DNA of 64,000 nucleotides from Morinoia aosen (lineage: Eukaryota; Arthropoda; Malacostraca; Amphipoda; Talitridae): assembly GCA_030386875.1 (NCBI GenBank), contig CM059573.1, forward strand, positions 30,607,891 through 30,671,890. Direction: 5' to 3'. Positions 1 through 58,554 of this stretch are shown piece by piece. The notes under the pieces were generated by a model. It did not search any database. It was not told the DNA's origin and was given only the letters and a program-made list of their open reading frames with translations. Position 1 is the first letter of the stretch, and each line of letters starts with the position of its first letter. A program made the translations under genes and the position numbers.

Positions 1-2071
1 GTCTGTGGGTCTGATTTTGCGTTGTCAATGACAACGTATTGTTTCCGATTTGCTAAGTATGATCTAAACCAATCATGGACAGCCCCTCGAATGCCATAAC
101 AATGTAGTTTCGAGAGTAATACGTTATGGTCCACACAATCGAATGTTTTCGAAAGTCAAGAAATACGGAGAAAACAAATTTTCCTTCTTCTATATTAGAA
201 TAAAGGTATTGCAAATGATTTGATACAGCTTGTGTCGTAGATTTCTTAGAACGAAAACCGTATTGTTTGTCGTAGAGGAAAGATTTTTGTTCAAAATACG
301 AATGCACTTTTTTATACACAATTTTCTCGAATAGTTTGCTAATAATTGGTAGTACAGAGATAGGTATATAATTGTTAATGCAGTTTTTATCACCAATTTT
401 AAAAATAGGGGTGACTCTCGCAATTTTGAAAGAGTTGGGGAAGATACCTTGAGGAAGGGATTGGTTGACAATATAAGATATGCACGGTGCTATTATATCA
501 GCTATAGCCTTAAGAACTTTAGCCGAAAAATTTTTCAATCCACTTGATTTATTTTTCAAGTTGTTTATGCACGTAATTACATCGGAGGGATCAGTTGGCG
601 TGAAAAAGAAAGAGTTAGGTTCACGGACATGGTCCATGTATTGCAAGTGGTCTCTGGGTTCACTGAAGACTCAATCGGCTATATTTTTTCCTATGTTTAC
701 AAAAAAGTGGCTAAACACAGTTGCAATATCTTTTTTCTCGTGGTATTTTACATTTTCGTGAACGACGGACTCAATTGTTTTCGTAGTATTATTATTCGGT
801 TTATAGCATGAATTAAGCAGGTGTCAAGTTTTTTTAATATCAGTTTTGTATTCAGTAAATTTGCGCGTGAAGTAATCTCGTTTTGAGGTTCGTATTTGAT
901 TTGTCACATGATTCCTGAATCTGTTATACGTTACTTTAGATATTCGCCCTTCGTATAGTAAGGCTAGGTACGCTTGACGTTTTTTTATATTGATCACGAT
1001 ATCTTCAGTAATCCAGGGCTTTTGTCTATTTTTCGGCGTAATTGTGCGGGTGATTATTGGACAACACTGGTTATATGCGGTCGTTATAATTTCAGTTAAA
1101 TTTAGTATTGCTTCATCAATGTTAATCGCATTAATGTCCCGTTCATAGACGTCTAATGATGGCATTAATTCTTCTAGAACAGTTCGCATTGTTCCCAAGT
1201 TGTATTCGTTTACACAACGAAATGAACAAGTATCAGCCTGTGGGCTGGTACAAGGATTATAGACATTTTTCTTGATGAGAAACACCGGGAAATGGTCAGA
1301 TAAGTCAGAAATAATTATTCCGGTAAGAAAATCAGTCGGATCTAACATAAAAATATTATCGAGTAACGTAGCCGATTCAGAAACAACACGTGTAGGTTTC
1401 GTGATGATTGGAAGGAAGGAGCTAGACTGAAAAACATTTATGAAGTTTGAGATTTGCTCACAGCTATCATATTGTAGAAAATCGTAGTTGAAATCCCCGC
1501 AGATTATTATGTCATTATATAGAGACTTGTTGAACTGAGATATAATGCTTTGAAGCTCGTTCAGGAAAGAGACGTTACAAGCTGTTGGGGGCCTATATAC
1601 TGTCCCAAGCACAATCCGTTTATCATTTTTCGTTAGTTCTATAAATAAAGTCTCAATATGTTCACGATTCATAGTTGCACTTAAAATGACTTTCGAAGAT
1701 ATATGTTTAGATATGTACGTACTGATGCCACCACCACGTTTGTTAGTACGGAGTGAATGATGGCTATAATAGTTTTGAATTTGAATCAGGTCTTTAGATG
1801 AGTCGTCTACCCAACTTTCGGTGAAACTGAGAACATCAAAATTGCTGTTCAGCTCAGTGATAGTACAAGATATTTCATCTATTTTCGGATAAATGGATCT
1901 ACAGTTCCAACATAATAGAGAAAAATCGTTACAGGTCTTCCTCATCGATTCATTGAATTTTTAAATATTTAGGTATTTACAGTTTCCAGTTTCATTTAGG
2001 TTTGGGTGCAGTCTATTCAAATGATTGAGATCTGGATCAATATTGTCGAATATGTCAACATGGTCAGTCAT
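1..2071 (-). pseudogene. Retrotransposon ORF2: endonuclease and reverse transcriptase (broken, partial)
   Basis: Encodes the enzyme that nicks target DNA and copies the element RNA by target-primed reverse transcription. Reading minus from the ATG at 2071 (MTDHVDIF), an in-frame TAA lies in the linker before the ATG at 1945. The apurinic-type endonuclease follows: CWNCRSI, TESW (near residues 42-45 counted from 1945), RGGGI, VYRPP, GDFNYDF and SDHFPVF. The frame continues through KKT-TGA, where copy B has a tryptophan codon, and a second TGA after KNIAD. The reverse transcriptase fingers follow (NYIPISVLPIISKLFEKIV, QYGFRSKKST). Motif A begins as FLDFRK, then a one-base deletion near 147 shifts the frame; copy B has the extra base. 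So two or three stops and one frameshift make it inactive. The C-terminal part lies beyond the window start. Confidence 0.85.
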
Positions 2072-2672
2072 TAGCATTAAGAGACAGTAAGTAAAATGTA
2101 ACGTAAAAATAAAAATGATAAAAACTACGGGATGAAGGTAAAAATAAGGACATTCCTACTTAGAATTAAATTAAAAGAAAGAGAAACTAAAAACACACAG
2201 ATTATTAGTATAAATTATTCAAAACCTAGTATGATTTCATAAGGAGAGCGCAAATTCAGTCCATGAGCAGGAACATTAGGGATCATAAATGGCAAATAAT
2301 GTAGTTACAAGGCTGTCGTACCAGTGGTTTCTGCATATAACGCTTATAAGATGTAGCAAGGACGAAATGGATTTAAAAACGAAGTGACAGTGAAGTTATT
2401 TATGGAATTTAAAAAATCTTGACTAACTAAATTGTTTCCAGATTCAGAAACATATACACGAGTTAAGTCTGAGCAGCAAGTTCGGTATGAGCATTCGGAT
2501 AAAAAGCAGAAAGAAAGAAATTGAAAAACAATTTAGTAAGCAGTAAAAGAAGGCTGCAAGGTCGACGTGGATGCCTTGAAGAGGTAAAGGTAATTCAATC
2601 AAAAATCAAGAAGAAAACATGTGGACAGATATCAAAATAATATTAAACTCAATACGTCAATCTAAAAAAATA

Positions 2673-3472
2673 CTAATCACGAATAATTTCCTCTGAGGAC
2701 TTGCCGACATGTTGCAGCAAGTACTTGTCTAGTTCTTCAGGTGCATTGATGGTTAGGGGTCTCTGAGTTACTTGGCCAGGTATCTTTGGAGAGAAGACGT
2801 TGATATTGCCATCCAAACTTCTTGCGGGTCCTATTTGTTCCGGAAATTTTCATTTGGCCAATCTCAGAGTGTACATTATACTTGCTCGCGAAGGTACTAA
2901 GTATTCATTCACGTAGAGTTGTTCCGGTTTAGTAACACGGCAGGTTGTCAGAACTTCTTGCTTCTTTTCATATTTTCGTAGCTCAAAAGATATGTTTCTT
3001 CTATCGACGTTTCCGGGTGGAGGTTTTTTTCCCAATCTATTCGCTGTGGTGATGTCAGAGTTACTCAGGTTGATTTTGAGTTGGTCCTTCAGGATCTGGC
3101 ACACCGTTTCTATGCAATTTTCTTCAGGACGTGATTGCGGCAGTTCCCCTGATATAACCAAAGTGCGTTTTTGTTCTCCAATTCTTCACGTTCTTCTTTC
3201 CGTTCGAGTCGCTCTAGACGAGAGACTATGTTATTTATCTTCTTATCTTGTTCTTCAATCCTTGCATTTTGATTTGATTCTTTCTTCGTTAGTGTTTCAA
3301 TCATCGTTTTCAAGTCACTAATTTCGCTTTGAAATTTCTTCATTACTGATTTGAAGAGATCAATTAGGATGGAAACTACTTGCTTAGTCTGTTTTGGCAG
3401 GCCTTGTACGTCTGGATAGTCAAGCTCCAGCATACCCTCGCTGTTGTTGTCCTTGGTTGGGCTTGTCGCCAT
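2673..3472 (-). pseudogene. Retrotransposon ORF1 (coiled coil plus RNA-binding-like domain, frameshifted)
   Basis: A structural RNA-chaperone-like protein of the LINE particle. The start ATG at 3472 sits in CAAGATGGCG, shared with copy B. The first about 105 residues end in a charged heptad-like stretch (ARIEEQDKKINNIVSRLERL), a likely coiled coil. A frameshift near 3160 moves the reading to the frame beginning VISGELP, which contains ANRLGKKPP, RRNISFELRKYEKK and the block YVNEYLVPSRASIMYTLRLAK, resembling the RRM/C-terminal part of LINE ORF1 proteins. An in-frame TGA follows LRLAK, where copy B has a sense codon, and the ancestral frame runs on to a TAG at 2673 (SEEIIRD). Expected length is about 266 residues. 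ORF1 families diverge quickly, so the domain call is by resemblance. Confidence 0.75.
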
Positions 3473-3715
3473 CTTGTGAAAAGGGAGACACTCTCAAAAA
3501 GAAGCAAGGGTTGAGTGCTTGTTCTGATGGAATATCACACTTTTTGTTCGATTTTTTTAATTTGGTTAGATAAAATTTATTCTTGGATTCTCATGGTCTG
3601 AGTGGGCACTCTTTTTTGGTTAGAAATGCATGATCATTAACCAGTTGGGCACTTTGTTTCGGAGCAAAGACACAGACGTCCTCACTGCCTCACTGCACTC
3701 ACTGCACTGCACACA

Positions 3716-4719
3716 TACATATTCATGACTGACTTGAAAAAATACATGATTTCAATTACAATTTTAAATAAAATGATTACATTTGAACTAAAAAAATCAC
3801 AAAAACAGTTTGTATAACAAACAAAATACAAATACTGTCAGTGTAGCTTCAGATTAAATTCACACTAAACAAAATTTGAATTGGTCTCCTTTAACAGGGC
3901 AACTTACCATTCAGGTTTATATAATATTCTAGGTATATATATGCATATAAGTCCAGTACTTTTATGTCACCATTATTTTTATATCACCATTATAACTGTT
4001 AATGTTTGGATACCCACATATTAGCCTAGCTTACTAGTAGCTAAATACTACCTATATATGCATACCTAATGGAGAGGTGAAAATGGTCAATCCAGTTTTG
4101 ATTCGTGAAATGATGAGCAGGATATAAAAAAATCTTAGGAAATACCATAAAAACAAGGTGTGCAAAATATCAGCACAATCGATCAATACCCAAGTAGACA
4201 CAGATGCGGGATTAACATGGGGCCCATATGATATAACTGAAAAATAATTATACCTTTTCACATTCATTGCACAATGTGTATGATAGGTGGTAGTATTACT
4301 GTAGATTTGTGCTTTTCATAGTGAAGAGGAATATAAAAACATTATTTATGATTGCTCTCAGGAAAAGTTTAGCTGCAATCTACCTGCGTCTCTGTACACA
4401 TGCATCTTCAAGAGGTGGGAAGAATTGAAGTGAAAAAACTAAATGGTTATTTTCATTACATTAATTTAAGACTACATAAATCTCTAGAAATTAAATATTT
4501 GACCTATTCCGGTTTCTTTGACAAGATAGGCCAATTAATTCAGATAATCCCTAACAAAACTGATTATTCATTAAAAGTAAGCAAGAACAGCATAGGAACA
4601 ACATAATGCGAGCAGTATGCATTCACTTGGTTTGATAAAATAAGTAAATTTAAAAACGTTTAAGTCACCATCCCTGTCTTTTGCGCCAATCCACATCACT
4701 GTTTGAACTCGTACATGTA
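3716..4719. other. AT-rich stretch, no gene seen
   Basis: No open frame here looks coding and I see no terminal repeats or tandem array. It separates the first retrotransposon from the small foldback at 4720. Confidence 0.5.
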
Positions 4720-15366: not shown

Positions 15367-17045
15367 TGTTGGTGGAACTCTTGGTACAAACTTCGGCTAC
15401 GAGTAGAAAATACAATTTTAAATACTTTTTCATCAGTGAAAAAATACCGAAAAAAACTTAGTTTTTTAATTATTGGGCTTAGCAGTTTTTAATGCAGCGC
15501 TTCAAGAACTCACGGCGATCCTAGTTAACCGCATGCTCTAATGTTAAATAATAATACACGAGGGTAATGAAAAACGTTGAATAACATGAGGTACTTTAAT
15601 AAATAATAGAAAGTAACGCATCAAAGTAGGTGTTCAAAAGTTCGACCATTAACATCGATACACGCACGACACCTTCGTCGAAGCGAGTTGCGTACGTTGC
15701 CAAACATTACTGGGTTGTCAGCGATATCTCAAGCAGCGACTGCAATTCGAGCGACAAGGTCTTCTTCCGACTCCACAGATGTCGCATAAGTCAGAGATTT
15801 CAAGTGCCCCCCTAAGAAAAAATCAAACGGAGTCAAATCAGGTGATCTCGGTGGCCAGGACACAGCACCACCTCGACCAATCCATCGATTTGGAAATTGT
15901 TGGTCAAGAAACCGTCGCTCATTTAGAGCATAATGTGCCGGAGCTCCATCGTGTTGAAACCAAAGTCGTCAACGAATACCTAATGGCACATTTTCCAATA
16001 AACAAGGAAGGACTTCTTCAAGAAAGATTTTGTACACATCTCCAGTAAGACGCTCTGGCAGAATGTATGGACCAATGATTGTGCACGATACCTGCCCAAA
16101 CATTGACAGTGTGTAGCGATGTTGGTGATGACGTTCATGGATGACATGAAGGTTGTTCTGCTGCCATGAGGGAAAGTTATGATAATCAAAAATTCCATCT
16201 CGGCTGAAGGTTGCTTCATCCGTGCACAACACACACTCTGCCAAATTGGCATCTTCTACCCCCCGATCTAAAAACCACTGCGCGAATCGCTCACGAGGAC
16301 CATAATCAACGGGAAGGAGACCCTGGACTCTCTGGAAGTGATACGAATGATAATTATTCCGGTTCAATACATGCCACATTGTACCATGGTCATGCACGAA
16401 TACCCGAAGATGCTGCTGCGGCACGGGTGCTCGTACGCGGGTTTCTACTGAAATGTTCCAACACTTCTTGCTCTCGATGATAATTTATTAGGCGACCAAT
16501 GCCTACTCTATTTACATTAAAACTGCCGGTTTCCGTCAATCTTCGGTGCAATGCAGTGAATAATCGATGGTCAGGGACTTCTCGATTAGGGTAACGTTCG
16601 TGATAGATTCTCGCGGCACGTCTTGCATTACCATGAGCAACACCATAAGTGTAATGCACGTCTGCCATTTGTGCATTTGTAAGGCGATACATCTTACCAC
16701 TTCAGTGCCACGGTGCTAACTGACAAAAGATACATATACGCTTCTCACCAGGGGTCGTTAACGTTGACTAGGAATTTCTAGAAATTTCCTGAATCTGTGA
16801 ATTAATATTTCAAACTCTAAATAAAACATGTTCGATTCTGCCAACACTTGTTCATTCTAATTCCCCATATTGTTCTTATTCCTGTCTGTTGCGAAATCGC
16901 TGTTGTGTTCTTGTAGCGTTGCATTAAAAACTTCCAAGCCCAATAATTAAAAAACTAAGCGTTTTTGGATATTCTTTCAATGATGAAAAAGTGTTTAAAT
17001 TTGTATTTTCTACTAGTAGCCGACGTTTGTACCAAGAGTTCCACA
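15367..17045 (-). mobile_element. Tc1/mariner-superfamily element (DUF4817 type) with about 150-bp terminal inverted repeats
   Basis: The left end (15367 to about 15510, GTGGAACTCTTGGTACAAAC onward) is repeated inverted at about 16895-17045 with roughly 85-90 percent agreement by eye; both arms contain TTAGTTTTTTAATTATTGGG. Between them lies the broken transposase at 15620-16692. Total length is about 1.68 kb. The outer edges may extend further, because AACACCATAT-like words lie outside both ends, and I could not fix the TA duplication. Confidence 0.85.
15620..16692 (-). pseudogene. Tc1/mariner-like transposase, DUF4817 type, DD41D spacing (frameshifted)
   Basis: Would catalyse cut-and-paste transposition of the surrounding element. 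The start ATG at 16692 gives MYRLTNAQMADVHYTYG, the DUF4817 helix-turn-helix with AARIYHERYPNRE. The frame breaks near 16395 (...SSGIR) and resumes in another frame at HGTMWHVL, with VLCTDEATF holding the first catalytic aspartate. A TGA near 15969 (where the family has arginine) is followed in frame by WFQHDGAPAH (second aspartate) and WPPRSPDLTPFDFF (third). Forty-one residues separate the second and third aspartates. Another TGA lies near 15740, and the natural stop is at 15620. The full-length product would be about 357 residues. One frameshift and two stops, both possibly C-to-T decay, make it non-functional. Confidence 0.85.
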
Positions 17046-34904: not shown

Positions 34905-36600
34905 TGCTTTGAAAAAAGGTAGGTTGCTATAGTGGAGGGTGATGATGTGAAGAGGAGATGGGGAGAGTATTTTGAGGAACTGCTGAATGTGAAGGATGAT
35001 AGGGTTGCGAGAGTGGTAGCTGGTGGAAGTGATGTTAGAATGCCTGCGTTTGGTGAAGTGAATAGTAGTCGAATAAGAAGTGTGGAAGTGAAAGGTGCGT
35101 TGGATGTGATGAAAAATGGGAAAGCTCCAGGTATGGATGGCTGCACGGTTGAATGTCTAAAGAAAGGAGGAAATGTGGTAGAATGGTTGGTACGTTTATT
35201 TAATGTGTGTTTCGACGCTAGTAAAGTGCCGGTGGATTGGAGTAGCGCGTGTGTAGGTCTGTTGTACAAGGGGAAAAGTGACAGGTATGAGTGCAGTAAT
35301 TCTAGGGGTATAAGTCTACCGAGTGTCGTTGGGAAACTGTATGGAAGAGTTTTAATTGGAAGAGTGAGAGTGATGACGGATCGTACGTATGCTTGCTGAA
35401 AAACAAGGTGGTTTTAGAAGTGGTAGAGGTTGTGTGGATCAAATGTTTGCTGTGAGGCAGGTAAATGAGAAATACTTAGCAAAAGGTAAAGATGTATATT
35501 GGGCATTTATGGATCTAGAGAAGGCGTATTACAGAGTGGACCGTGAGGCTCTATGGCAAGTTGTAAGCTTGTATGGAGTGGGTGGGAGACTGTTGAATGA
35601 TATCGAGTTTCTACGTTGCTATAGCAGAGCATGTGTGAGAGTAGGGAATGAGGTGAGTGAGTGGTTTCCAGTTGTGACAGGTGTGAGACAGGGTTGTGTG
35701 ATGTCGCCGTGGTTGTTTAATTTGTTTATGGATGGTGTGGTGAGAGGAGTGAATGCCAGAGTGTTGGGCTGAAAAGGTGCGCAGTTGGTGGGACAAAATG
35801 GTATGTAATGGGAAGTGTGTCAGCTGTTGTTTGCAGATGATACAACGCTTGTGGATGATTCAGAGGAAAAACTGAGGAGACTGGCTGCAGAGTTTGGTAG
35901 AGTGTGCAAAGGCGTAAATTGAGGGTAAATGTGAATAAAAGTAAGGTGATGAGATGTTCATGAGGTGGAGTGTTTTGAAATTTGGATGTGAGGATGAACG
36001 GTGAAATGTTAGAGGAGGTGGAGCATTTTAGGTACCTCGGGTCGGATGTGGCTGTTAAGGATAGTATGGAAGTAGAATTGAGGCATCGAGTGATTGAAGG
36101 CTGTAAGACATTGGGTTCTATGTGGAAAGTGTTTGAATGCAGGAGTTTGAGTATGATTGCTAAGAGGGGACCGTATGAAAGCTTGATCGTGCCAGTTTTG
36201 TTGTATGGAGCAGAGTCTTGGGGATTGAGAGCAGCTAGCTAAGAGGAGGAAGTTGGATGTGTTTGAGATGAAGTGTTTGAGGAGTATGTGTGGAGTAACG
36301 AGAAGAGATAGGACCAGGAATGAGTTGGTTAGGGGGCAGACGGGTGTTATCAAAAAGTTAAGCAGGCGAGTGGATGAAAGAGTGCATGGATGGTTTGGGC
36401 ATGTTGGAAGAATGAATGTTGAGTGGCTGGTGAAAAAGATTTATACGCCGGAAGTGAGTGGTTTTAGAGCGCGAGGTAGATCACGGATGAGTTAGATGGA
36501 TGGGGTGAAACGTGCTTTGTATGAGAGGGGTCTGACTGTGGACGTGGCTAGAAGGATGACTGCGGACAGAAGTGAGTGGGGGCAGTGTATGAGAAGGTAA
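34905..36600 (+). pseudogene. Reverse transcriptase of an RTE-like element (frameshifted)
   Basis: Would reverse transcribe the element RNA. Visible in order: WGEYFEELLNVKDD; KNGKAPGMDGCTVECLKKGG (fingers); a frameshift near 35385; KQGGFRSGRGCVDQMFAVRQ; motif A AFMDLEKAYYRVD (the catalytic aspartate kept; an expected aspartate after AY is tyrosine); motif B GVRQGCVMSPWLFNLFMDG; stops at 35770 and in the next few codons; motif C FADDTTLV at 35830. Further frameshifts near 35917 and 36240 lead to FRYLGSDVAVKDSMEVELRH, LLYGAESWGLR, then KLDVFEMKCLRSMCGV, RTRNELVRGQ, WFGHVGRM and a final RSEWGQCMRR stop near 36599. At least three frameshifts and three stops. The C-terminal block is typical of RTE-type and related arthropod elements; the clade is inferred. 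Confidence 0.8.
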
Positions 36601-38669: not shown

Positions 38670-38995
38670 ATTTTAGCGCTCCCAGGGGGACTATGTAAGG
38701 GCCTGAGCTAAAGGTTAGGTAGGCTTTATTTTTGTTGAAATAGAATAGGTTTTTATTTTGTTATGGACCATCTTTTTTCGGTTCACTGCTGTCCTGTTTT
38801 TCAGCACCTACTACTTTCTTCTTTAACTTTGATCTTGTTTCATGAACGTCTTTCTCATCTTACTGTTTTTGTGCCTTTTCTGCATAGATTCCACGTTCCC
38901 TTAACTCCATACTAATTGGTGCCTTCTTCTTTCCTCTCTTTGGACCGCCTTTGTTGCTGATAGGGAGAAATAAACTAACTAATAATCTAATATAA
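38670..38995 (-). repeat. Dispersed repeat family G, copy 3
   Basis: The minus-strand copy shares GATCAAAGTTAAAGAAGAAA, GTAGTAGGTGCTGAAAAACA, GGACAGCAGTGAACCG and CCCCTGGGAGCGCTA with copies 1 and 2. Upstream it has an open stretch reading KGGPKRGKKKAPISMELRER, then a stop, so the family may be the 3' end of a longer coding element. Confidence 0.65.
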
Positions 38996-40389
38996 TCTAA
39001 TTAGGGTTCCATTTCTGAAAGAAGCTGGTTTTATAAGTTAGAATATAAAGGTGTGATTAGGTAAAATAACTGAAACAACTCAAACATGTCATTGGTGTGC
39101 ATTGGCAGGATTCAATATATGTATGTTAGAGTAAGATCATGGTTACAATTATTTTAAAAATGATCGCGTGGGGAGAAATTTCGCGTTGTTTTCTCTTGTT
39201 TTTCAAAATTTGAAATTCTATTTGTAATATATTTGTAGAACTAGTACAAGTATCACTCCTCTGGAACCTTAGCGATAGCTGACGTGGAAGGAAAACCTAC
39301 TCAACTTATCACTGTTCCACAGATGTTAGTGAAAACACATTGATCAAGAAGTACCACGTGAAATACCGTATTAACTAACCATGCACAATTAAACGTTCCA
39401 ACAAGTGAATGCTTTAGATGCAGAACATACATCTATGCTAATTACATTTAGGATGGAGAGGGTTGTAGTGTTGGATACGGCGGTTTGAATTGGGGAAAAG
39501 TTAATATTGAGCCAGTGTTATTTGAGCATATAAAAGAGTCACTGTTAATTAAGTAACAAGTTTTAATCTACCAAATTGCTTATCCACATCATTCTAGCAC
39601 GAGTGCAGCATTAGTCAAACTTTCTTCACTAAACAGAATAAAACGAACTCATACATAATATTTTGGCTACCTGATTCTACATGTTTTTCACGTGTATTCC
39701 AACCATTAGAAATTTGTTTACTCCTGCTAACAAACAACACTCGATCGAAACTGGGCCGTCGTCTCGTCGCATTAACGATGCATCAGATGCCACGAAACAA
39801 ACATCGAATATCTGAAACTAAGACACAAATATTTGATGGTCGTCAGACTGCATAGATATACGCAGAATCTCTCGTCAGGCCGTGTGCTATTTCCACTGTT
39901 GTGCGCCTGGAGGTATTCTGCGCTCCTGGCTGGAAGAGGGGACTGGAGAGCCTTTAATCACACATGAGAGAAATCTGAGTGGATTTGTGATATACTTTGC
40001 CTAAAAATATAACGTCATAACATTATGTAAATTTCATATTGTGCTGCTTGTGACTTTTATATTGTCTTGAACAGCCAGAAACTGAATGAAAAATGACATC
40101 CAAAATAGTTGATTCTGAAATTCTCGTTTAATGAAAATTATATCTCAGCCAATAATGACTTTCTGATTGTGTTACAGCAGTATTTACCCCTTGAAAGAGA
40201 AATTAAAGAGATTATAAAAGACTGTGTAAGTGCGTTGGTTGGAGACTTAAGAAATCGCTGAATGGTTTAGGTCATGAGTTTTACTACCTGGGATGAGTTT
40301 TAAGATTTTACTTTTACTGCCGTAAGTTCGGAGTTTGACGGTGCAATTTCAAAATTCACGGTAACTATTGAAACCCGGAATTATCTTTG
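38996..40389. other. No feature recognised
   Basis: AT-rich sequence with no credible gene or repeat seen. Confidence 0.35.
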
Positions 40390-41180
40390 AGGAGGTCAAC
40401 CCAGCCCTTGGCGGTCCGATGAGCTATTTTCTGTTTGTTGTTGAAACAGGACCCTTAGGTGGTGGACTATTCGGTCCTAAAATTTTATGGCGCTATAGAC
40501 ACTAGATTCCCCCCCCCAGGGGAATGTAAGGGGACCAAAAATCCTGAATTATCGATCCAATTTCGACCCCAAATAAAAAGAAAACAAAACGGGTAATGGA
40601 AAATTTGCTACCATACTTTTTTAGAAAGTTTCAAGGATTCTAAAACTCTTTTGTGTTTGTTCTAGCATAAAAACTCAATGAGTTATATTCCTTCGAAATA
40701 TCAATATAAATGAACTAAAAAACCAATATGTCAATTTTTTTCAAAAACCAAGGCCTGAATCGAAAAAATGAAGGAATAAATTGTGTTTATTTTTAAAAAC
40801 TACATTCACTGGTGAAATGTCATAAAAATCAGACAACAAATATTAAAGTTCATTATTTTTTTAGAACTTTTTTTCTTTTTTCATTTATTTTTTGTAAATT
40901 ACAATTCACAGTGTGAATATGAAGTTATGCACGGGATTATCGAAATAAAAATAAAAACAGCATTCAATTACAGAAATTTTCCATGATTTTACAATTCAAC
41001 ATATTTTTTTTTGTTTATGGGCTCTCCTGAAGAATCATACATTTTTACATTTAAGAAGAAACAAGTCATTGAGTTTTTATGCTAGAACCAAGCCAAAGAC
41101 AGTTTTATAATCCTTGAAGCATTGCAAACAAAGTTACGCGTACCAATTTTCTATTTGCAACTTTTTCATATGCACAAAGT
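40390..41180 (-). mobile_element. Truncated, inverted copy of the TTAA element
   Basis: Inverted relative to 42094-43221, and matches it from its right end inward to about 42450. Shared blocks include ACCCTTAGGTGGT, TATGGCGCTA, TTTCGACCCCA-ATAAAAAGA, TAAAAACTCAATGA and ATTACAATTCACAGTGTGAA. It has no second terminal repeat. Confidence 0.65.
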
Positions 41181-41225
41181 ACTTATAAAAATTATATGTT
41201 ATTGAATAGAGCACGCAATTCGACC

Positions 41226-41385
41226 AAATGAAAATTATGAGAAACAAAAGTTACCAGATTACCAGACCATGGACTTATCTTAACCATACCAGACAATGCA
41301 TGTACCTGATATATGCATCAAATGTATTGGTTTTCATCGTCCGGTCTGGTAATTTGGTTACTTTTGTTTCTCATAATTTTCAAGT
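41226..41385. repeat. Foldback with 42-bp arms
   Basis: GAAAATTATGAGAAACAAAA at 41230 continues GTTACCAGATTACCAGACC; the inverse is at about 41340-41383 with three mismatches. The spacer is about 75 bases. Confidence 0.7.
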
Positions 41386-42093
41386 GCTTTACCTGCAAAC
41401 CTACCCAATTCAGTAATAAGACATCCAATAAATAGATTTTAATGTAGAGATAATGTAGTATAAAGACAGAATTTGAATATTTTGAAGATTTTTCCAAGAC
41501 TTTTCCAAATAAATGAAGAATTATGCCGAATGGTTTAAATGAACGTTCCCCCAATTGCCTTCACTTAGAATGTTTTAGATTAGATGGCGAACGAAATATC
41601 AGGTAAGTGCAAAAGAAATTCCCGATATAAGGATCTTGGGTTAAATGAGTCAGTTAATGACTATGGAAATATTTATTCATTAATATGCTCACCATTGCTT
41701 CCAATGACCTCATTTCATCTTTCAACAAGGCTTTATAGGCCACGTTTCACTGTTTTGCTATTTGCATAGTGGTAATTAATAGTAGGATTCTTGTAAGGTG
41801 CATTGTACCTTTATATCATTACCGTGACCTTGAACTAAATATTTATTTGATTTTCAAAATATACGGACGAACGGACGATTCTATTTCTGTACCTAACCAT
41901 TTCGAATCATTCTATTTCGAAAGCTAACAAAACCATTTTCTCTAACTCTAAATGACAATTTTAATCGTAAATACATACATGGAATCCATTCATTTTTCAG
42001 TAAATTATGCCCTTCGTATTTAATGAATGCTGTTTTCAATGCCGTTTAAAGAAAATAGAACCTAAATAATAAATCAGATAGGCACTACATTAA

Positions 42094-43221
42094 GGGGGTC
42101 CTCCGGAAATTTTTTTTTTTTTGATCCGATTGGTCTGAAATTTGGTGAGTATATGTAGTTTGGCAAGACAAACATATTTGAACAAATGAAATTTCTTGAT
42201 TTAGGCCTTAGTTTTTCCGAAAAATTTGAAATACCAGTTTTTTTGGTCATTTTTATACCTATTTCAAATCAATAGAAGTCATTGAGTTTTTTATGCAAGA
42301 ACAAATTCAAAGACAGTTTTGAAATCCTTGGAAACATTTCTAACAAAGATATATTCAGGGATTTTTCATGTTATTTTAAATTTTTTATTTGAAAAAATGT
42401 ACCAATATATCAGAAAAAACAAAAATTTTGGATTTGAACTATTAGAAGAAAATTAAAATGTAAAAATGGAAAAAGTGGGACTATAACTTTGTTATAAATG
42501 TTCCAAGGATTCCAAAACTGTCTTTGTTTTCTTCCTAGCATAAAAACTCAATGACTTCTATTCCTTTGAATTTTGAGAATAAGTGACTTTACAGTGTAGG
42601 CCAAAAACTAAATTTTTTGTTTTAGTGTGATATAATGGAAAATTTATGTAATTGAATGCTGTTTTCATTTTTATTTCGATAATCTACATGCATAACATCA
42701 TATTCACACTGTGAATTGTAATTTACAAAAAAGAAAAAAATTTAAAAATTTTCAACTTATTTCATAAAAATTATGAAATTTTTTGTTTTCAGTTTGATTC
42801 TTATGAAATTTGACTATTATATGTAACTTTTGAAAAGAAACAATTTGCTCCATACATTTTTTTGATTCAGGTCTTAGTTGTGAAAAAATTCGACATATTG
42901 GTTTTTAGTCCACTGGTATTGATATTTCGAAAGAATAGAACTCATTGAATTTTTATGCTAGAACAAAAACTGAGATAGTTGTATAATCCTTGAAACATAT
43001 CTAACAAAAGTACATTCGCAAATTTTCCATGTCTTTTTTTGTTTTCTTTTTATATGGGGTCGAAATGGGCTCGAAAATTCAAGATTTTGGTCCCCAGGGG
43101 GGATCTATTGTCCGTAGCGCCATAATATTTTAGTACCGAATAGTGAACCACCTAAGGGTTCTTTTCTAACAATAAAATGAAAAATGACCATCAGAGAGAA
43201 AAGGGGCCCCGGAGGACCCCC
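42094..43221 (+). mobile_element. TTAA-flanked non-autonomous element with internal inverted units
   Basis: 1128 bp, starting GGGGGTCCTCCGG (42094-42106) and ending in the exact inverse (43209-43221), flanked by TTAA at 42090-42093 and 43222-43225. TTAA duplication points to piggyBac or Kolobok. Inside, one motif of about 80 bases (TCATTGAGTTTTTATGC, then CAAAGACAGTTTTGAAATCC) occurs near 42270 (plus), 42490 (minus) and 42945 (plus), giving a nested palindromic layout. No transposase. Confidence 0.8.
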
Positions 43222-43225
43222 TTAA

Positions 43226-44835: not shown

Positions 44836-44985
44836 AACCGATATTTACATCTGTCCGATATTTACATCTGTCAACTTCACAAATGTCAAAACAGATTTCA
44901 CATTGGCCGCAATCTGCACAAAAGAAGGCATATTACAATGGGGTGACTTCTTTTGGCCTACCTTGTATGAAGCAGATGGAACCCG
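44836..44985 (-). mobile_element. Terminal fragment of a mariner-type element
   Basis: The minus-strand end CAAGGTAGGCCAAAAGAAGT continues CACCCCATTGTAATATG and matches the right end of the element at 52122-52659. Shared words include CATTGGCCGCAATCTGCACA and GATATTTACATCTGTC, the latter present twice in tandem here. The other end is missing. Just left of it (44809-44831) is a perfect hairpin GCTCGCGCA with a five-base loop. Confidence 0.7.
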
Positions 44986-45826: not shown

Positions 45827-45834
45827 CATTTCTG
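45827..45834. repeat. P element target-site duplication, left
   Basis: CATTTCTG, identical to 50414-50421 on the other side of the element. Eight bases is the P-family duplication length. Confidence 0.92.
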
Positions 45835-45865
45835 CATGAAGGTATAAAAGACAGGAGGGAGCGCT
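45835..45865 (+). repeat. P element 31-bp terminal inverted repeat, left
   Basis: Begins CATGAAGGTATAAAAGACAG and ends GGAGCGCT. All 31 bases match the reverse complement of 50383-50413; the next base differs, fixing the length. An inward-facing TATAAAA lies at 45843-45849. Confidence 0.95.
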
Positions 45866-46265
45866 ACACAGTCGCGCCTCAGTGCAGATTGAAGCTAGCT
45901 CGGGCAGCAATCAGCCACTCGGGAGGGGTACCAAACACTGTAATGCATAGGAATAAATTCACGTTTCAGGCTATAACTACACAACTATATCGAATAATTG
46001 GTAAAAAACGCAGAGACGCCAACCTGAAACATTAAACTACATGACAGGTGCTAAAAAACAGCAATGCATTGCAAATGAAACAAATTTACAGAAGAGGAAA
46101 CAGAGCAATACTTACGCAAAACTGAAGCGGCGGCGGCGGCACACCGTCAGCCACTCAGCCATTGCTGCACAGCGCACACGGGCCGGCACTATGTGCGCGT
46201 ACAACCATTTGACGCACACGTGTAGCTCTTGGAGCCAAGCCTGGCTAGGCAGGAACTGCACATTA

Positions 46266-49200
46266 CTACAAGCCGCTGAAGATGACATTCTTCAGTGCTT
46301 TTTGTCTACTAACTTTCTTGTTTAGGGTAAGTTTTCTTGTGTGTTCCTTCGCAGCATGATGGTGCCTTACTACGATATATTTTGCAGAAATAGCTTTTAT
46401 TATAAGGAGTCTGTGGTTATTGAAAATGGAGTCAGGCACACAATGGTTTAAAGTATTCAGTAGTTCGCATCCAATGCATGCTTCTAACACCTCATTAACG
46501 GCTTTCAAAACGTCTAATGTTTTAAACTGATCACATGTACTTTTTGTATTTGTACGGTAGCTGTTTTCGGCTTTCATGCAGATCTTAAAGACGTCATCAG
46601 AAGGAACTATTAAACTACCCTTACACTTTAGCTTTATCAGCTGCGCAAACGTGCTGCTGTATTTTTTTTCTGAGAGCATTGCCGAAACACAGTTTTCACA
46701 TCGTATACATTCCCTCAATTTCCTCACAATGAAGCCAGCAATGTAGCCCACCACATTTTCTGTATATGTAGAAGTTCCAAATTCACCTCCGATGACAAGG
46801 TTTTCTTCATCTGTACTCAAGTTATCGCTACTTAATGAATTCAAGTCTTCTAATGTAAGTTTATTTCTTGAAGTAGAGCCGTTTAAAATGTTGATATACT
46901 GTCTGTAGAGCAGACTGCATTCAGCATTTGCGCTCGTGCACGTTAATATTTGAATTTCTTCCAAAGCCGAGCAATTTCCCCGCATTACTTCCTGAAGTTC
47001 GTTGTGAATTAGTATCCTTTTGTAAGCCGCTTCAAACTGTTTCGCGTTAGGGTTGTTGTTAACACCACTGTGACTGCGTATTTTGCTGAAAAATAATTCT
47101 AGATGGTCTTGGCTGACTTTGTAACAAGTAAAGTACGTCATACCGAATTCACCCAATTTCTTAAAGATGTTCTTGATACTGGTGAGACAGACAAGAAGTC
47201 CTAGAAATCCGGTCTTTCGTCCTGTACGGCAGATCAGTTCACCAGTGGAAGCCAACTTTAAATTTTGTATATATAACATATCTTCCTCAATTTGTGGTAG
47301 TATGGTTACGGCATTTTCTGCACCTAGAGGACGCTTGAAACCGAATGACCGTAAATTTCTTGAGTTCAGTATATCAAAGATTCTATTAAATATTCGAATA
47401 AATTTTATTGTTGCTTCGCAAAGCTCGAACCCGGAGATTTTGTTCTCGTTGCAAAACTGGAGAGAATCTGCAACTGAGTTGCTAAGCACTTGTGTGGCTA
47501 ATTTAACATTCATCTTCTTCTTGAAGTAGTTCAAATGGGCAGCTCTTAATTTATTTCCCAAATGTAACCCACGCGAATCCTGTAAATCATGTAACTTACG
47601 AACATAATCCCACTTAACAGTATTACCTTCACTATCTACTATAAACTTCATATCACCAATCGTGTTGCGCACCAACTTGATCATGTGGCATGGATCCAGA
47701 AATATATGTATTTGCTGTCCATCGATGGGGTGGGAGAAATAAGGAACAATGTTATCATAACTAATAGTACAACCTAATTCTTTAGCCATTGAAATATTGG
47801 AAGATGCGCCGTCAAAAGTAAGAGTACGAACACATATCCCAACGTCATGCAGTCGCGAAATACTTTCGAGAACCAGATGTTTTCTCTCTCGACCAGATAG
47901 TCCATTAATAAGAAAGTAACCGATAGGTAATTTCCAACTAGCATCGAGAGCTACTACCATGAATACGAGGGCATTACTAGCGACCGGCAGGGTGTCGTCT
48001 TCGATGCTTGTGCCGATGTCCACTTGGCCATGCAGCTTTTTCCCGTCCCACTCCACTTGTTGCCGTATAGCCATTTCGTCCATCATCAGAGCACATGGGA
48101 TTTTTTTCTCAGTTTCAGACGTTGAAAACTTTCGTTTCAACGCTTCGAACGCCTCTTCAGTAAAGCCTGGTGCACCATTGATGCTACTGTACCATTTCTG
48201 TAACGTTTTAGGATGCGGCAGGCATGTGTCAAATGATTTTCGGACATACGCGTAGGCTCTTGGAGAATAGAAGTGCAGGGTTAGGGCAAAGGTTCTCAAC
48301 TGTGGAGAATACACTCTTGCGAGTTTCCCATTATTACGCTTGGCAAACTTTCTCTTAAGGAGATCGGATACTCCACCCCCTGCCGCTTCAATAATGTCTA
48401 AGCACTGCCCATTTACTATATTTTTCTTCTTCAAGTTACTGAGCACGGTGGAGAGTTCACTGTTTTTCTTCTTCAAGCGCCTTTGGGCTTGTTGGAGCGT
48501 CTTTATTTTTTTTCTTGATGTCATCAATTGGCATTCTTTTAGCTCTAGTTCCCTTTTTAATGCTTTTTTCCTTGGTGTATCATCCAGCTCGGTAATATTT
48601 GAGGCAGTGGAGATATTTGTTGCCTCTTCATCCACACTGCTAGATGCAGCAGTTTCGTGTACTGCAGAAGTCGAAGCGGTGTCCCTGTTCGCAGGAGGTT
48701 TTCTAACCAAAGAGCCGCCTGTCTGCATGTATGAGGGAAAGCTGGGGAAGATGGAGGGTACAGCTCCTCTGAGCAATTTTCTGCAACTCTGGACGTTAGT
48801 GTCAAAGCAGTCATTCTTAAAATGTTGGGAACACACTGCTGTGCTTTTGCCGGGTGTAAAGCCTTCTCTGCGTAAGGCATTCATCCACTTCTCACGCAAG
48901 GCTTCGTCCTTTGGGAACCTGAGAATTAATTTGGCATCTATGATAAAAGGCTTAGTGAAAGCGCACAGCACATGCACCATTACCGCAAAAAGTATTTACC
49001 AAGATAATCTATCTATTCTATATACCAAACCTCCCTCCACACGGGAGGGGTAGCAAAGCGACATGCACAAATTCCCTATCGCTTACATCTACACATCTTA
49101 GTTTTCTGGGCTTTATCCCCATCTTTGCAGTGCGTTGGTATCCGCTACCAAGAAAATGAATAAATAAATTTCCACGTGCATACGAGCGCCCGTAATCAGT

Positions 49201-50254
49201 AATGGATTAACACAGTACCAGATGTAGCAGCTTGTTGCGAAACACGATGGGCCCTGAATTCTATATTTCTCATTGCAAATAAAAACATTGTAGTAGAATT
49301 TGATTCTTTTTTCTTTTATAATTATAATCTAAAAAACTCTATAATACTTTCAACTTATTAATAATATATCGAGTTCGCACGATCAATAATGTACTGTCGA
49401 TATTTCTATCAGTAGTTGCTCGGACTTTCTATCGGAAGTGGTTAATGTTGTGCTTAAATCAGGGCCAAAAAATTTTGAGCTACTAATTGTTTTGCTACAG
49501 AAAAAGAGACGAAATCGGAAGAAATCGGGGGAGGAGTGGATTTTGAAACGCAATATGTACACTTATGTGAATTGATTTAATGGCATAAGGGTAACGGAAC
49601 TGGAAGACTTTTATAACCAGCTCCGAATGATTGATGATATATATTATTAGCTTCTGGATATTTTGAATAACCGAGGAAGATTCCACAAAGAGGGGAGGCA
49701 TTTCAGTAATGAGAGACCGGCTCTAACTCTACGATTTTTGGCAACTGGACGAACTCTTGGTTGCATATAGAGTACTTTCCATCAATCCAAAAATGCTCAA
49801 ATTTTGATGAAATTTCAGAAAATTTTGATCACATAAATATTTTCATCAGTCTATCAGTATGCCGTTCAGACGATCAATATATTTACACTAATAGTAAATA
49901 TTTTAAGTAATATTGATCGTGTGAATGCTGCTTTAAGGAACATAAGTTAGTAATGAGCTGTTGAGGGGGATGCGTATTATTTTACACATTTGAAACGCTA
50001 TAACTCAAAAAGTAGAGATCGCCGAATGAAATGGTTTTCAAATTTGAATTCTACGCTGAACAATACTGTGCAAATATGTATAGTCTATTAAATAATAAAC
50101 GAAATTCAAATACACGGGCCTGAACTGCAATTTTACTTAAGCCTTCTCCAAAAGTATGAATGTTACCTAGATTTAGTGCTTACTTGTGCAATGAGATGTT
50201 ATTCTTTTTGTCGTTGCGCGCATTGCAACCGTAAGCGCTGCAGGAATTCACCAT
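46266..50254 (-). CDS. P element transposase (THAP domain, two exons, 907 residues)
   Basis: Cuts out and reinserts the element in the nucleus; P-family transposases bind GTP. Exon 1 is 50254-50184 (ATG at 50254), exon 2 is 48918-46266; 71 plus 2653 bases make 908 codons with stop. The donor is AA|GTAAGC, the acceptor TTCTCAG|G, phase 2. Exon 1 supplies C5-x4-C10; exon 2 supplies HKFP, W35 and C53-SQ-H56, then AVPSIF: a complete C2CH THAP finger. Residues about 141-193 are charged and heptad-like (probable coiled-coil dimer region). The catalytic core shows D304 (MMDEMAIR), D393 (LTFDGASSN), D432 (FLDPCHMIKLVRN) and E631 (SQDHLELFF), matching the acidic set of Drosophila P. The C terminus has VVGYIAGFIVRKL and a CIRCENC pair. 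No stop or frameshift. Without splicing, an ATG at 48980 would give a 904-residue form lacking the first zinc-ligand pair. Confidence 0.92.
48919..50183 (-). other. Intron of the P transposase gene
   Basis: 1265 bases, from GTAAGC (50183-50178) to the AG at 48920-48919, preceded by TTAATTCTC. AT-rich, with no internal reading frame worth calling. Near the 3' end (about 49033-49057) CCACACGGGAGGGGTAGCAA resembles CCACTCGGGAGGGGTACCAA at about 45915 near the left end of the element. Confidence 0.85.
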
Positions 50255-50382
50255 GTTGCCAGCAGCGACACAACGACGGTCTGACAATCACTGCTCACTC
50301 ACTAGAGCTGTGGTTCAAGGTCGGCAGGCACAGCCATACGGGCTGCTAGCACACAGCCAGCTAGGTTACAGGAAACGCATCC

Positions 50383-50413
50383 AGCGCTCCCTCCTGTCTT
50401 TTATACCTTCATG
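50383..50413 (-). repeat. P element 31-bp terminal inverted repeat, right
   Basis: Exact inverse of 45835-45865. It lies 129 bases upstream of the transposase ATG, so it also forms the promoter region. Confidence 0.95.
50399..50405 (-). promoter_or_regulatory. TATA box of the P transposase gene, inside the terminal repeat
   Basis: TATAAAA on the minus strand, 145 bases upstream of the ATG and pointing at the gene. Transcription would start near 50370, giving a leader of about 115 bases. Because it is in the terminal repeat, transposase binding there could compete with transcription; this is an inference from position. Confidence 0.6.
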
Positions 50414-50421
50414 CATTTCTG
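50414..50421. repeat. P element target-site duplication, right
   Basis: CATTTCTG, identical to the left duplication. Confidence 0.92.
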
Positions 50422-52121: not shown

Positions 52122-52659
52122 CCACAAGGTGGGCCAAATGAAGTCATCCGATGTTGTTTGGCTCTAATTTTTTTAGAAATAAAAACCTCGATTCTGTTTT
52201 TTTAAATGTTTATTTGAACCTTTACAATTATGTTGTTCAAGTCGAGAAGATGATATCGGCCAAATGGGTGCATCCACAATTGATTGCTACACGGGCTGTC
52301 GGGCTCATTTTATGACATTTTTCGTCACTTCGGCGAGAACTTCGGGCGACAGATTCTCGCACTTGTGTCGAATGTTGTCCTTAAGTGCTTCCAGGGTCTC
52401 GGGCTTCTTCACATACACACGGGACTTCGATAAAACCCACAGAAGAAAGTCTGGAACGGTCAAATCGGGCGATCTTGCGGGCAAGTCCAAATCGCCAAAA
52501 CGAGAAATCAGGCGACCCGGGAACGCCGCCTTTAGAATATCATCTGTCCGATATTTACATCTGTCTACTTCACAAAATGTCAAAACAGTTTTCACATTGG
52601 TAGCAATCTGCACAAAAAAAAACATGTTACAATGGGGTGACTTCTTTTGGCCCACCTGA
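52122..52659 (-). mobile_element. Internally deleted mariner-type element nested in ORF1 of copy B
   Basis: 538 bp. The ends AGGTGGGCCAAATGAAGTCA (left) and AGGTGGGCCAAAAGAAGTCA (right, inverted) are flanked by TA at 52120-52121 and 52660-52661. Deleting the element and one TA restores the host retrotransposon frame, which proves insertion at a TA. It keeps about 24-bp terminal repeats and the C-terminal transposase part; the N-terminal two thirds are gone. A fragment of the same family is at 44836. Confidence 0.88.
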
Positions 52660-56162: not shown

Positions 56163-58554
56163 CACTGGTTCCCAGCCTGTGGGTCTCTAATCGATTTTGA
56201 CCCGAACGTGAATATTATGTAAAACACGGTAAAAAATGAAGACCGTTGAATAAATAAAATTATGAAATTAATTAAGACAATTATATAAATTTACACTAAG
56301 AAACTAAATGTAACAGTTCCTTAAGTCACTCAACACAACGTCTGAGACAGTATTGACCATGTTTCGTTTATGTTTTGTTTTCGTTGCGCCACCGCTGTCG
56401 CTCCTCCCATCAGTGTTGTCGCACTTGCAGTGACACGTTGTTAGCTTTATTCAAGTGATTCGTAACCCTTTAAAAATGAGTGTAAGTTAGAAAGAGAAAA
56501 ACAGGGATGATTTCTTCGTGTGAGGATTCACTGACATAGTTAATGCAAGTGTGGAAAGACCACAGTGTGTAGTATGTTTGGAAGTTCTTGCCCATGAGTC
56601 TATGACACCAGCTAAACTTCAAAGACATCTCGAAACTAAGCACCCTGTTTTGAAAGATATAAGTACTGATTTTTTTAAAGCAAAAGTTGATGGCGTCAAA
56701 AGTCGCTGGCTTGATAGCAGTGGATTATTTCAAAACAAAAATTTAGCCGCTATTGGAGCTTCATACACTGTTGCATCAAGACTAGCATAAGCTAAACAAC
56801 CACACACAATAGCTGAGAATCTTATTTTTCCATGCACCAAAGATATTGTGCGTCTCATGATGGATCCTGAAGCAGTAAATAAATTATCGCCTCTATCCGT
56901 GTCAAACAATACGGTAAAACGAAGGATAACAGATACGTCCGAGGATATTTCATGCCATATTATTCAAGAATTGAAAGAAACTCCTACTGGGCTGTTCAGC
57001 ATACAGCTTGATGAAACTACTGATGTGATAAACTTTGCTCAACTTGTTGTGTATGTTCGTTATTGTAAAAATAAAACAATGAAGGAAAATTTCTTGTTTT
57101 GTAAGCCTCTGCAAACGTCAACTACTGCTGCTGATATTTTTGATATAATTGATGATTTCTCCAAAGAACATTCAATCGAATGGGAGAAATTGTGCGGAGT
57201 TTGTACTGACAAGACACCTTTAATGCTCGGTTGTAAGTCTGGCTTTCAATCGTTAGTTAAAAATGTGAGTCCAGAAGTAATTGGGACTCACTGCATGATT
57301 CATCGACAAGTGTTAGCTATCAAGACGTTGCCTGAACCATTCAAAGAAGTGCTTAACCGAGTGATTAAAGCCGTAAATGTTGTTAAATCAAGGCCACTTG
57401 CAACACGGCTCTTCAGAGTTTTATGTGAAGATTTGGGTTCAACCCATGAAGCACTATTGTTTCACACAGTGGTAAGGTGGCTCTCGAAAGGAAAGGCGTT
57501 GAAGAGATTTTTTGAATTCAGGGGAGAGCTGCAAATATTTCTTGATTCTCAAAATGCAAGCGAAATAAATCATTATTTACGAATGAATTTACGTTGTGCA
57601 AATATGCATACATGGTTGACATTTTTGAGATATTCAATAGTATTAATACAGTATTACCGGGTAAAGAAGGTACGGTAATATCTTTGTCTGAAAATAAAAC
57701 GTCTTTCAAAATGAAATTGGAACTCTAGATGAACAAAATTAATCAAAAGAAATTATACATATTCCCAACAACTGCCCAAGTTGTTGAAGAAGCGGCAAAT
57801 GAAATTGACATCGAAGACTTGTACTGCTTGATACAAGAACATTTGAAAAATCTTACTGTTCAGATAAGAAAAAATTTTCCAGATTGATGTTCTAATCTTT
57901 CTCTCTTACAATCAACCCTTTCAATGTCAGTGTATCTGATGTCCCTGAAGCAGCAGAAGAAGAGTTCATTGACTTAAAAAAACAGCTTTGAAGCTAAATC
58001 ATGGTTTGGTAAACTGCAATTACTAGAATTTTGGGTAAAAAACTTCCAAAAATTCCCAGTGATATCAGAAATCACAATAAGGAATTTATTGCCGTTCCCA
58101 ACAACTTGCTTATGTAAAACAGCATTCTCCCAACTTCTCATCCTTAAAAACAAGTACCGAAATAAATTAGATGTGGAAGACGACTTGAGCCGTGCCAAAA
58201 TCGACAACGGAGCCAAGGATAGAATTGCTAGCTAAAAAACTACAATACCAGCCGTCTCATTAAGGTCAGTTTATAAACATACTTTACATAACGGTGTGAA
58301 ATTTGTTTGTACGAATAATTTGGAACTGATATGCAATTAATTAATCTTTTGTAGGAGCTTTAAAATTTTTGGTGATAAAATTTTACATTAATAAAATATT
58401 TACGGAATGTACAGTTACTTCACGAATAAATCGCAATAGATGACAGTTTGTTAAAGAAAAAGTAAATGTATATAAGATATTTTAGGTATTGGGTTCGCTT
58501 CCTGATTGCTTGGTCTAAAATGGGTCGCTATATTTGAAAGGTTGGGAACTACTG
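56163..58554 (+). mobile_element. hAT element (ZBED5/Buster-like), 2392 bp
   Basis: The ends are CACTGGTTCCCAGCCT at 56163 and AGGTTGGGAACTACTG ending 58554, an imperfect inverted pair of the hAT C-A-TGGTTCCCA type. The flanks ATTCAGAC (56155-56162) and ATTTAGAC (58555-58562) agree in 7 of 8 bases, as expected for an aged 8-bp duplication. It contains one broken transposase gene. Confidence 0.88.
56476..58235 (+). pseudogene. hAT transposase, ZBED5-like (broken)
   Basis: The ATG at 56476 is followed in the same frame by stops at 56488, 56521 and 56788. Visible: BED-like finger RPQCVVCLEVLAHESM with LQRHLETKHP; SYTVASRLA and KDIVRLMM; the catalytic-core entry SIQLDETTDV (first acidic residue); CGVCTDKTPLMLGCKSGF (second); THCMIHRQVLA; then VVRWLSKGKALKRFFEFR. 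After about 57640 the frame shifts (NSINTVLPGKEG, FKMKLEL). The C-terminal dimerisation region reads LLPFPTTCLCKTAFSQLL, then NKYRNKLDVEDDL, ending at TAA 58233. Full length would be about 580 residues. Several stops and at least two frameshifts make it dead. The assignment rests on the strong ZBED5/hAT pattern of these blocks. Confidence 0.85.

Follow-up and report, generated by a model that had tools for sequence, protein, structure and literature searches.

The P superfamily is listed among the DNA transposons of arthropods in the passages drawn on here (PMC6327564). Its described members include the P element of Drosophila, whose target is given as GTCCGGAC in the relevant passage of PMC3276498. 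KP, a Drosophila protein of 207 amino acids, is described as a repressor in a passage of PMC7776569. In Anopheles gambiae, nine P subfamilies are described, seven of them with full-length copies, and some show signs of recent movement, in the sections of PMC1562414 relied on here. According to the portion of PMC10983969 used here, the zebrafish THAP9 transposase excises Drosophila P elements as well as Pdre elements, without having transposed either. Here we describe a P element in a 64,000-nucleotide stretch of DNA, called the window below, from the talitrid amphipod Morinoia aosen (GenBank assembly GCA_030386875.1, contig CM059573.1, positions 30,607,891 to 30,671,890). Judged from its sequence, positions 45835-50413 of the window probably hold (we put the probability at about 0.9) a P-superfamily transposon of the cut-and-paste kind that is full-length, potentially autonomous and resident in the amphipod. 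It is a new family within a known superfamily, and the host group is new as far as the literature searched goes: among the open papers listed by the searches, none names a crustacean P element, whether from an amphipod or not, in its title or at the start of its abstract, which cannot prove absence. A first-pass annotation of this DNA held that P elements with every part intact have seldom been described outside the flies. This is overstated in view of Anopheles (itself a dipteran), zebrafish, the arthropod P superfamily and 423 matching proteins found in our own search. What makes the element stand out is the full set that it offers: two copies whose gene is unbroken, deleted derivatives that keep the ends, one derivative resembling KP, and a retained target bias.

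The element is 4579 bp long, and its transposase gene lies on the minus strand (Table 1). Its terminal inverted repeat, CATGAAGGTATAAAAGACAGGAGGGAGCGCT, has 31 bp that match perfectly at both ends. When this 31-mer is sought with up to three mismatches, the window contains no site beyond the two element ends, and 100 shuffled sequences contain none. The boundaries, the perfect inverted ends and the identical 8-bp flanking duplications reported by the first-pass annotation are exact to the base, and so are its splice coordinates, 50184/48918. As it had also claimed, the transposase frame is unbroken once a single intron is removed: excision of 1265 bp (GTAAGC...TCTCAG) leaves a frame of 907 amino acids with no internal stops. 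A scan for subterminal inverted repeats at 32-450 bases from both ends found no shared 9-mer, a result that a degenerate repeat would still fit. The motif TATAAAAG starts 9 bases from each end of the element. Because it lies inside the repeat and, on the gene side, 151 bases before the ATG, it suggests that the end inverted repeat doubles as a core promoter.

The predicted protein has the domains of a P transposase. Pfam matches above the cut-off comprise a THAP domain (residues 5-81), whose sequence motif is also present, a P-element helix-turn-helix (HTH; 186-266), the N-terminal (273-406) and C-terminal (623-657) parts of an RNase H domain, and an insertion domain that binds guanosine triphosphate (GTP; 434-554). 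The match to the THAP9 C-terminal domain falls slightly below the cut-off. The best solved relative is the Drosophila P transposase (6p5a; E 6e-28), with 125 of 410 aligned residues identical. In this alignment the Drosophila residues D230, D303 and E531 correspond to D304, D393 and E631, and the Asp-Asp-Glu (DDE) triad is present. All three residues stand in columns with 95% conservation or more when the protein is aligned with 64 relatives, namely those of at least 780 amino acids among the 120 listed. Seven of the eight GTP-contacting residues, as enumerated in a section of PMC7776569, are identical to those of the Drosophila enzyme. An RNase H fold with an inserted GTP-binding domain, an HTH, a DDE triad, inverted repeats and 8-bp duplications are features of the P superfamily, and the amphipod element has every one of them. 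Matches were found to 423 proteins among 7984 candidates scored, and the closest among the best 120 of the 423 is 51% identical.

The position of the intron, within the THAP domain, can be compared with that of other THAP genes. Human THAP1 aligns with the 907-residue protein free of gaps over residues 1-29, and its intron 1 likewise follows coding base 71, as can be read from the variant c.71+9C>A (PMC4049367). A C-x2-H motif can be read within the first 160 residues of 27 relatives. Sorted by eye, 11 of these become similar abruptly at the intron site after unrelated residues, as expected if the annotated frame reads back into an intron; five have a THAP-like start and 11 could not be judged. 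Additionally, a further P family of the same genome, about 51% identical in amino acids, appears to have an exon 1 with the same phase in the THAP domain (by eye). Because these three lines agree, the THAP intron looks old and common across the P superfamily and not peculiar to the amphipod element. Shared with human THAP1, an intron at coding base 71 could serve as a marker that P transposases and THAP genes have one origin in common.

The genome searched comprises 1.99 Gb in 29 contigs, and the copy numbers given here are lower bounds. With the first 70 bases as the query, 40 matches were scored out of 141 candidates, and 14 of them, including the one in the window, are identical to it. A query of the right-end 230 bases gave 40 scored matches out of 107 candidates, all aligned over the full 230 bases. 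The whole element is found in seven of the 40 left-end copies: the window copy, L012, L016, L020, L022, L032 and L015 (refetched as L048). L032 carries an insertion of 440 bp and L048 one of about 2.2 kb. L020 and L012 are near-identical copies, of the kind that the first-pass annotation proposed to look for in the genome. Internal deletions occur in 32 of the 40 left-end copies and fall into a few recurrent classes, with joins from 396 to 3465-3473 (22 copies), 390 to 2614 (three), 350 to 3930 (two) and 570 to 3517 (two), while three copies have two deletions each. Only the left 378 bp are visible in L017, and the right end was not seen in the fetched pieces of the deleted copies L026, L037 and L039. 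Both ends are readable in 37 copies, consisting of 35 of the 40 left-end copies, L048, and L049, which was reached through the protein search. Perfect 8-bp duplications flank 36 of these 37, and in L027 seven of the eight bases agree. Because the DNA flanking L028 is identical to that flanking L029, the two count as one insertion. The protein search scored 51 of 1302 candidates and returned 55 matches. Sixteen of these, at 11 places, belong to the family (74-100% identity), and the other 39, which are 41-59% identical, come from further P families. No relatives of the element were found in viral contigs.

In all 16 copies from L032 to L047, the left inverted repeat carries three changes towards its inner end, reading GAGACCGCGCT (in L038, GAGACTGCGCT) instead of GAGGGAGCGCT, while no more than one change is found in the right repeat of those in which it was seen. 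The same deletion class is also found with a perfect left repeat. The occurrence of one deletion class with both altered and perfect left repeats hints at conversion between ends or copies.

The duplications show where the family inserts. Among 35 of them, 15 start with GT, 15 end with AC and five do both, against 0.10 expected from the composition of the window; L029 (the repeat of L028) and L049 are left out of this set and L027 is represented by its left copy. With L029 counted (36 sites), the symmetrised wider target is approximately RGTt..aACY. Uninterrupted relatives of the insertion sites were sought by aligning 34 joined flank pairs to the window and to the loci that had been fetched, and six alignments from four insertions were inspected. 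Across 48 bases at the junction, the joined flanks of L018 (against three loci) and L046 align without gaps to uninterrupted repeat copies. Overall, the aligned loci are 78-80% identical to the L018 flanks, and the L046 match is 69% identical. One uninterrupted match of L018 is a repeat copy in the window itself (38750-38997), with 78% identity across the junction. For L036, the match has a 5-base gap that extends into the duplication, and for L012 it is poor.

By its sequence divergence, the family is young in the host genome. The window copy differs from L012 and from L020 at 16 of 4579 bases each, apart from insertions of 8 bp and of 8 and 7 bp, respectively, while L012 and L020 differ at 14 of 4587. 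If each site is assumed to change at a rate of 2-4 x 10^-9 per generation, the age comes to about 0.4 to 0.9 million generations.

Internal deletion would also account for a shorter predicted protein of the family. The join from 390 to 2614 interrupts exon 2 in the coiled-coil region, and a genome-wide pattern scan for it, with at most two mismatches, found three places (L009, L013 and L031). L013 is 2348 bp long, is flanked by the duplication GTTCTAAC, and retains its splice donor and acceptor together with a 190-residue frame. The predicted protein has a THAP domain (E 9.5e-19) and most of the coiled coil (by eye) and nothing catalytic. By analogy, L013 could make a KP-like repressor. With this make-up, the recurrence of KP-type repression becomes testable. 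The sister copies L009 and L031 keep the splice sites and have a frame that stops after 66 residues. With one of three copies intact, this class gives no evidence of selection for the 190-residue frame. A stop at residue 66 is common to L009, L031 and the full-length L012; it may be inherited by descent, since all three end at the same residue.

Together, these features point to a mechanism of the following kind. Transcription would start near the right end, from a TATA box inside the inverted repeat, and splicing of the single intron would yield the 907-residue transposase. Its THAP domain would bind near the element ends, its RNase H domain with the three acids would perform the cutting, and GTP in the insertion domain would help to position the ends. 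Pasting into GT....AC-biased sites would leave the 8-bp duplications. The same transposase could mobilise internally deleted derivatives that retain the ends, and one such derivative may give a short protein of THAP domain and coiled coil that acts as a KP-like repressor. It is doubtful, in our estimation, that all of this amounts to a currently mobile autonomous crustacean P element with a P-M-like system, that is, an active transposase, deleted derivatives and a KP-like repressor of 190 amino acids made by one of them. If it does, P elements beyond the flies, too, give rise again and again to deletions that encode repressors.

The main doubt concerns present activity. The element may be structurally complete yet dead, inactivated by missense changes or by failure of expression, with a burst of transposition that ended several hundred thousand generations ago. 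We hold this to be nearly an even prospect, and it leaves the identity of the element uncontested. Several observations weigh against a working element. Among the full-length copies compared, no two are identical, and private base changes number five in the window copy, six in L012 and seven in L020. Only the window copy and L020 have the unbroken spliced frame of 907 amino acids, out of eight full-length copies (the seven from the left-end search and L049); in the other six the frame is broken or the start codon missing. The frame stops after 66 residues in L012, 93 in L048, 144 in L022, 177 in L016 and 190 in L032, while L049 has an open exon 2 and has lost its start codon. The splice donors of L009 and L022 are intact. 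Three residues of the window protein (36, 569 and 735) are private to it when it is compared with L012, L016, L020, L022 and L032, and the protein deviates from the 90% consensus of its relatives at eight sites. Any one of these private residues or consensus departures could impair the transposase. An asparagine replaces the GTP-contacting lysine (K400 of Drosophila). None of ten forms of the poly(A) hexamer occurs on the gene strand from the stop codon to 300 bp past the left end. The coding changes between the window copy and L020, four synonymous and seven replacement, are too few to reveal purifying selection among the copies and form a near neutral mix, which gives no demonstration that the protein has recently been under selection. 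The window's own duplication, CATTTCTG, fits GT....AC poorly, and a 100-base query of its joined flanks, used to look for an empty paralogue, matched its own two flanks alone.

Against inactivation stands the second unbroken frame of 907 amino acids, which sits on another contig, C2. The ends and splice sites of the element are perfect. Residues 569 and 735 vary among the wider relatives, and the glutamate of the window copy is the commonest residue at 569. Younger copies may also have escaped the search, since 40 of the 141 candidate left ends were scored. The term used by the first-pass annotation, possibly autonomous, is a fair one, given that all parts are present, that near-identical copies lie elsewhere and that one more gene is unbroken.

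It is very improbable that faulty assembly produced the ends or the unbroken frame. Dozens of other sites carry these two ends, with different duplications, which makes misassembly there unlikely, and the separate copy on C2 has the same frame. Host THAP9 genes have the same domain order and the protein narrowly misses the Pfam threshold for THAP9_C, but a domesticated THAP9-like host gene, more improbable still, is rejected on account of the perfect inverted ends, the 8-bp duplications and the dispersed full-length and deleted copies.

Table 1. Parts of the amphipod P element and its flanks, numbered from the first base of the window.
Feature	Position	Strand	Basis
Target-site duplication CATTTCTG, left, 8 bp	45827..45834	.	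sequence
Terminal inverted repeat, left, 31 bp	45835..45865	+	repeat comparison, mismatch scan
TATAAAAG within left inverted repeat, possible inward core promoter	45843..45850	+	sequence
Stretch 3' of stop codon	45866..46265	-	frame translation
Exon 2, codon 24 (last base) to codon 907 and stop TAG	46266..48918	-	translation, Pfam
Exon 2 content: remaining THAP, coiled coil (by eye), HTH, RNase H with GTP-binding insertion, THAP9-like C-terminus	46266..48918	-	
Catalytic Glu631 codon (Drosophila E531)	47097..47099	-	6p5a alignment and exon coordinates
Catalytic Asp393 codon (Drosophila D303)	47811..47813	-	6p5a alignment and exon coordinates
Catalytic Asp304 codon (Drosophila D230)	48078..48080	-	6p5a alignment and exon coordinates
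Predicted single intron, 1265 bp, GT-AG, phase 2, within THAP domain after coding base 71	48919..50183	-	
Exon 1, coding part, 71 nt (codons 1-23 and two bases of codon 24), THAP	50184..50254	-	
Terminal inverted repeat, right, 31 bp	50383..50413	-	repeat comparison, mismatch scan
TATAAAAG within right inverted repeat, possible gene promoter	50398..50405	-	sequence
Target-site duplication CATTTCTG, right, 8 bp	50414..50421	.	sequence

The surroundings of the element contain other repeats. Two repeat copies that are 90-97% alike flank it 7.69 kb apart (44848-44963 and 52541-52657), and a foldback-like structure of about 2.8 kb, with nested inverted repeats whose arms are 71-96% complementary, lies at 40405-43225. 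The first-pass annotation had described every other sizeable element gene in the window as broken. This statement was checked in part. Two stretches of a long interspersed nuclear element, 824-1960 and 53-670, share one reading frame that is broken between them, and three further open frames (56791-57678, 15969-16484 and 34923-35399) gave no match to Pfam at E 0.001. Elsewhere in the assembly, contigs C28 and C29 are mitochondrial, and COX1 recurs in C28 at a spacing of 18.36 kb. A COX1 gene taken from C29, translated with the invertebrate mitochondrial code, is 98% identical to that of a species of Platorchestia, a talitrid genus, and among the best 120 matches listed those from Haustorioides and Hyalella come next, at 89-90%; by this gene the host is an amphipod and most probably a talitrid. 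Further COX1 copies rich in TGA codons are found on C26 and C22. At 55-72 Mb of contig C27, most of the COX1 matches are without the TGA codons of the mitochondrial copies, and their lack of these codons suggests that bacterial sequence is gathered there.

A crustacean P element with its derivatives allows target choice, decay and repression to be compared across arthropod history, which spans about 500 million years in this comparison. It also provides a second animal in which to study the spread and control of P elements and, if active, might become a gene-transfer tool for amphipods. One comparison lies within the same genome, where two further P-transposase families, at about 51% and about 46% amino-acid identity, are distinct from the present one. 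The three families and the database protein P0001 form one clade with a support of 0.999 (FastTree). The 46% family has an element of more than 6.3 kb. In L052 and L055, two copies of the 51% family, a common block of 4.4 kb is 98.5% identical and the transposase frames are open, and no convincing inverted repeat or duplication was found at the ends of this shared block.

Zebrafish Pdre2/THAP9, in the excerpts of PMC10983969 and PMC7776569 used here, resembles the amphipod element in its THAP9-type transposase, its 8-bp duplications and its deleted relatives. It has 13-bp ends and 12-bp subterminal repeats, whereas the amphipod element has 31-bp ends and no subterminal repeat was found in it. 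AgaP2, AgaP3, AgaP12 and other Anopheles elements are 4.2-7.5 kb long, with ends of 27-31 bp and perfect 8-bp duplications (PMC1562414, in part). They are also akin to the amphipod element in having THAP transposases of 876-895 amino acids and associated miniature inverted-repeat transposable elements, as far as the same partial source goes (PMC1562414). Likened here by description, they belong to another host class and have three exons or more, against two in the amphipod.

The differences from the P element of Drosophila melanogaster lie in length, introns and subterminal sequence. The Drosophila element is 2.9 kb long with three introns, whereas that of the amphipod is 4.6 kb with a single intron, in the THAP domain. 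The 11-bp subterminal inverted repeats of Drosophila P have no counterpart found by the 9-mer scan in the amphipod element. Retention of the third intron in Drosophila gives a 66-kDa repressor. Retention of the one predicted intron in the amphipod would give a peptide of 24 amino acids, so the Drosophila switch is unavailable in that form. The inverted repeats of Drosophila P begin CATGA, as do those of the amphipod element. Like those of the amphipod, they are perfect over 31 bp, according to the part of PMC7776569 used here, and both elements make 8-bp duplications. The two also have in common a GT....AC-type target, the order THAP, coiled coil, HTH, RNase H and GTP-binding domain, the catalytic residues, and internally deleted derivatives, one of them KP-like. 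The GT....AC bias and the 31-bp ends have thus been retained at about 30% amino-acid identity to Drosophila P.

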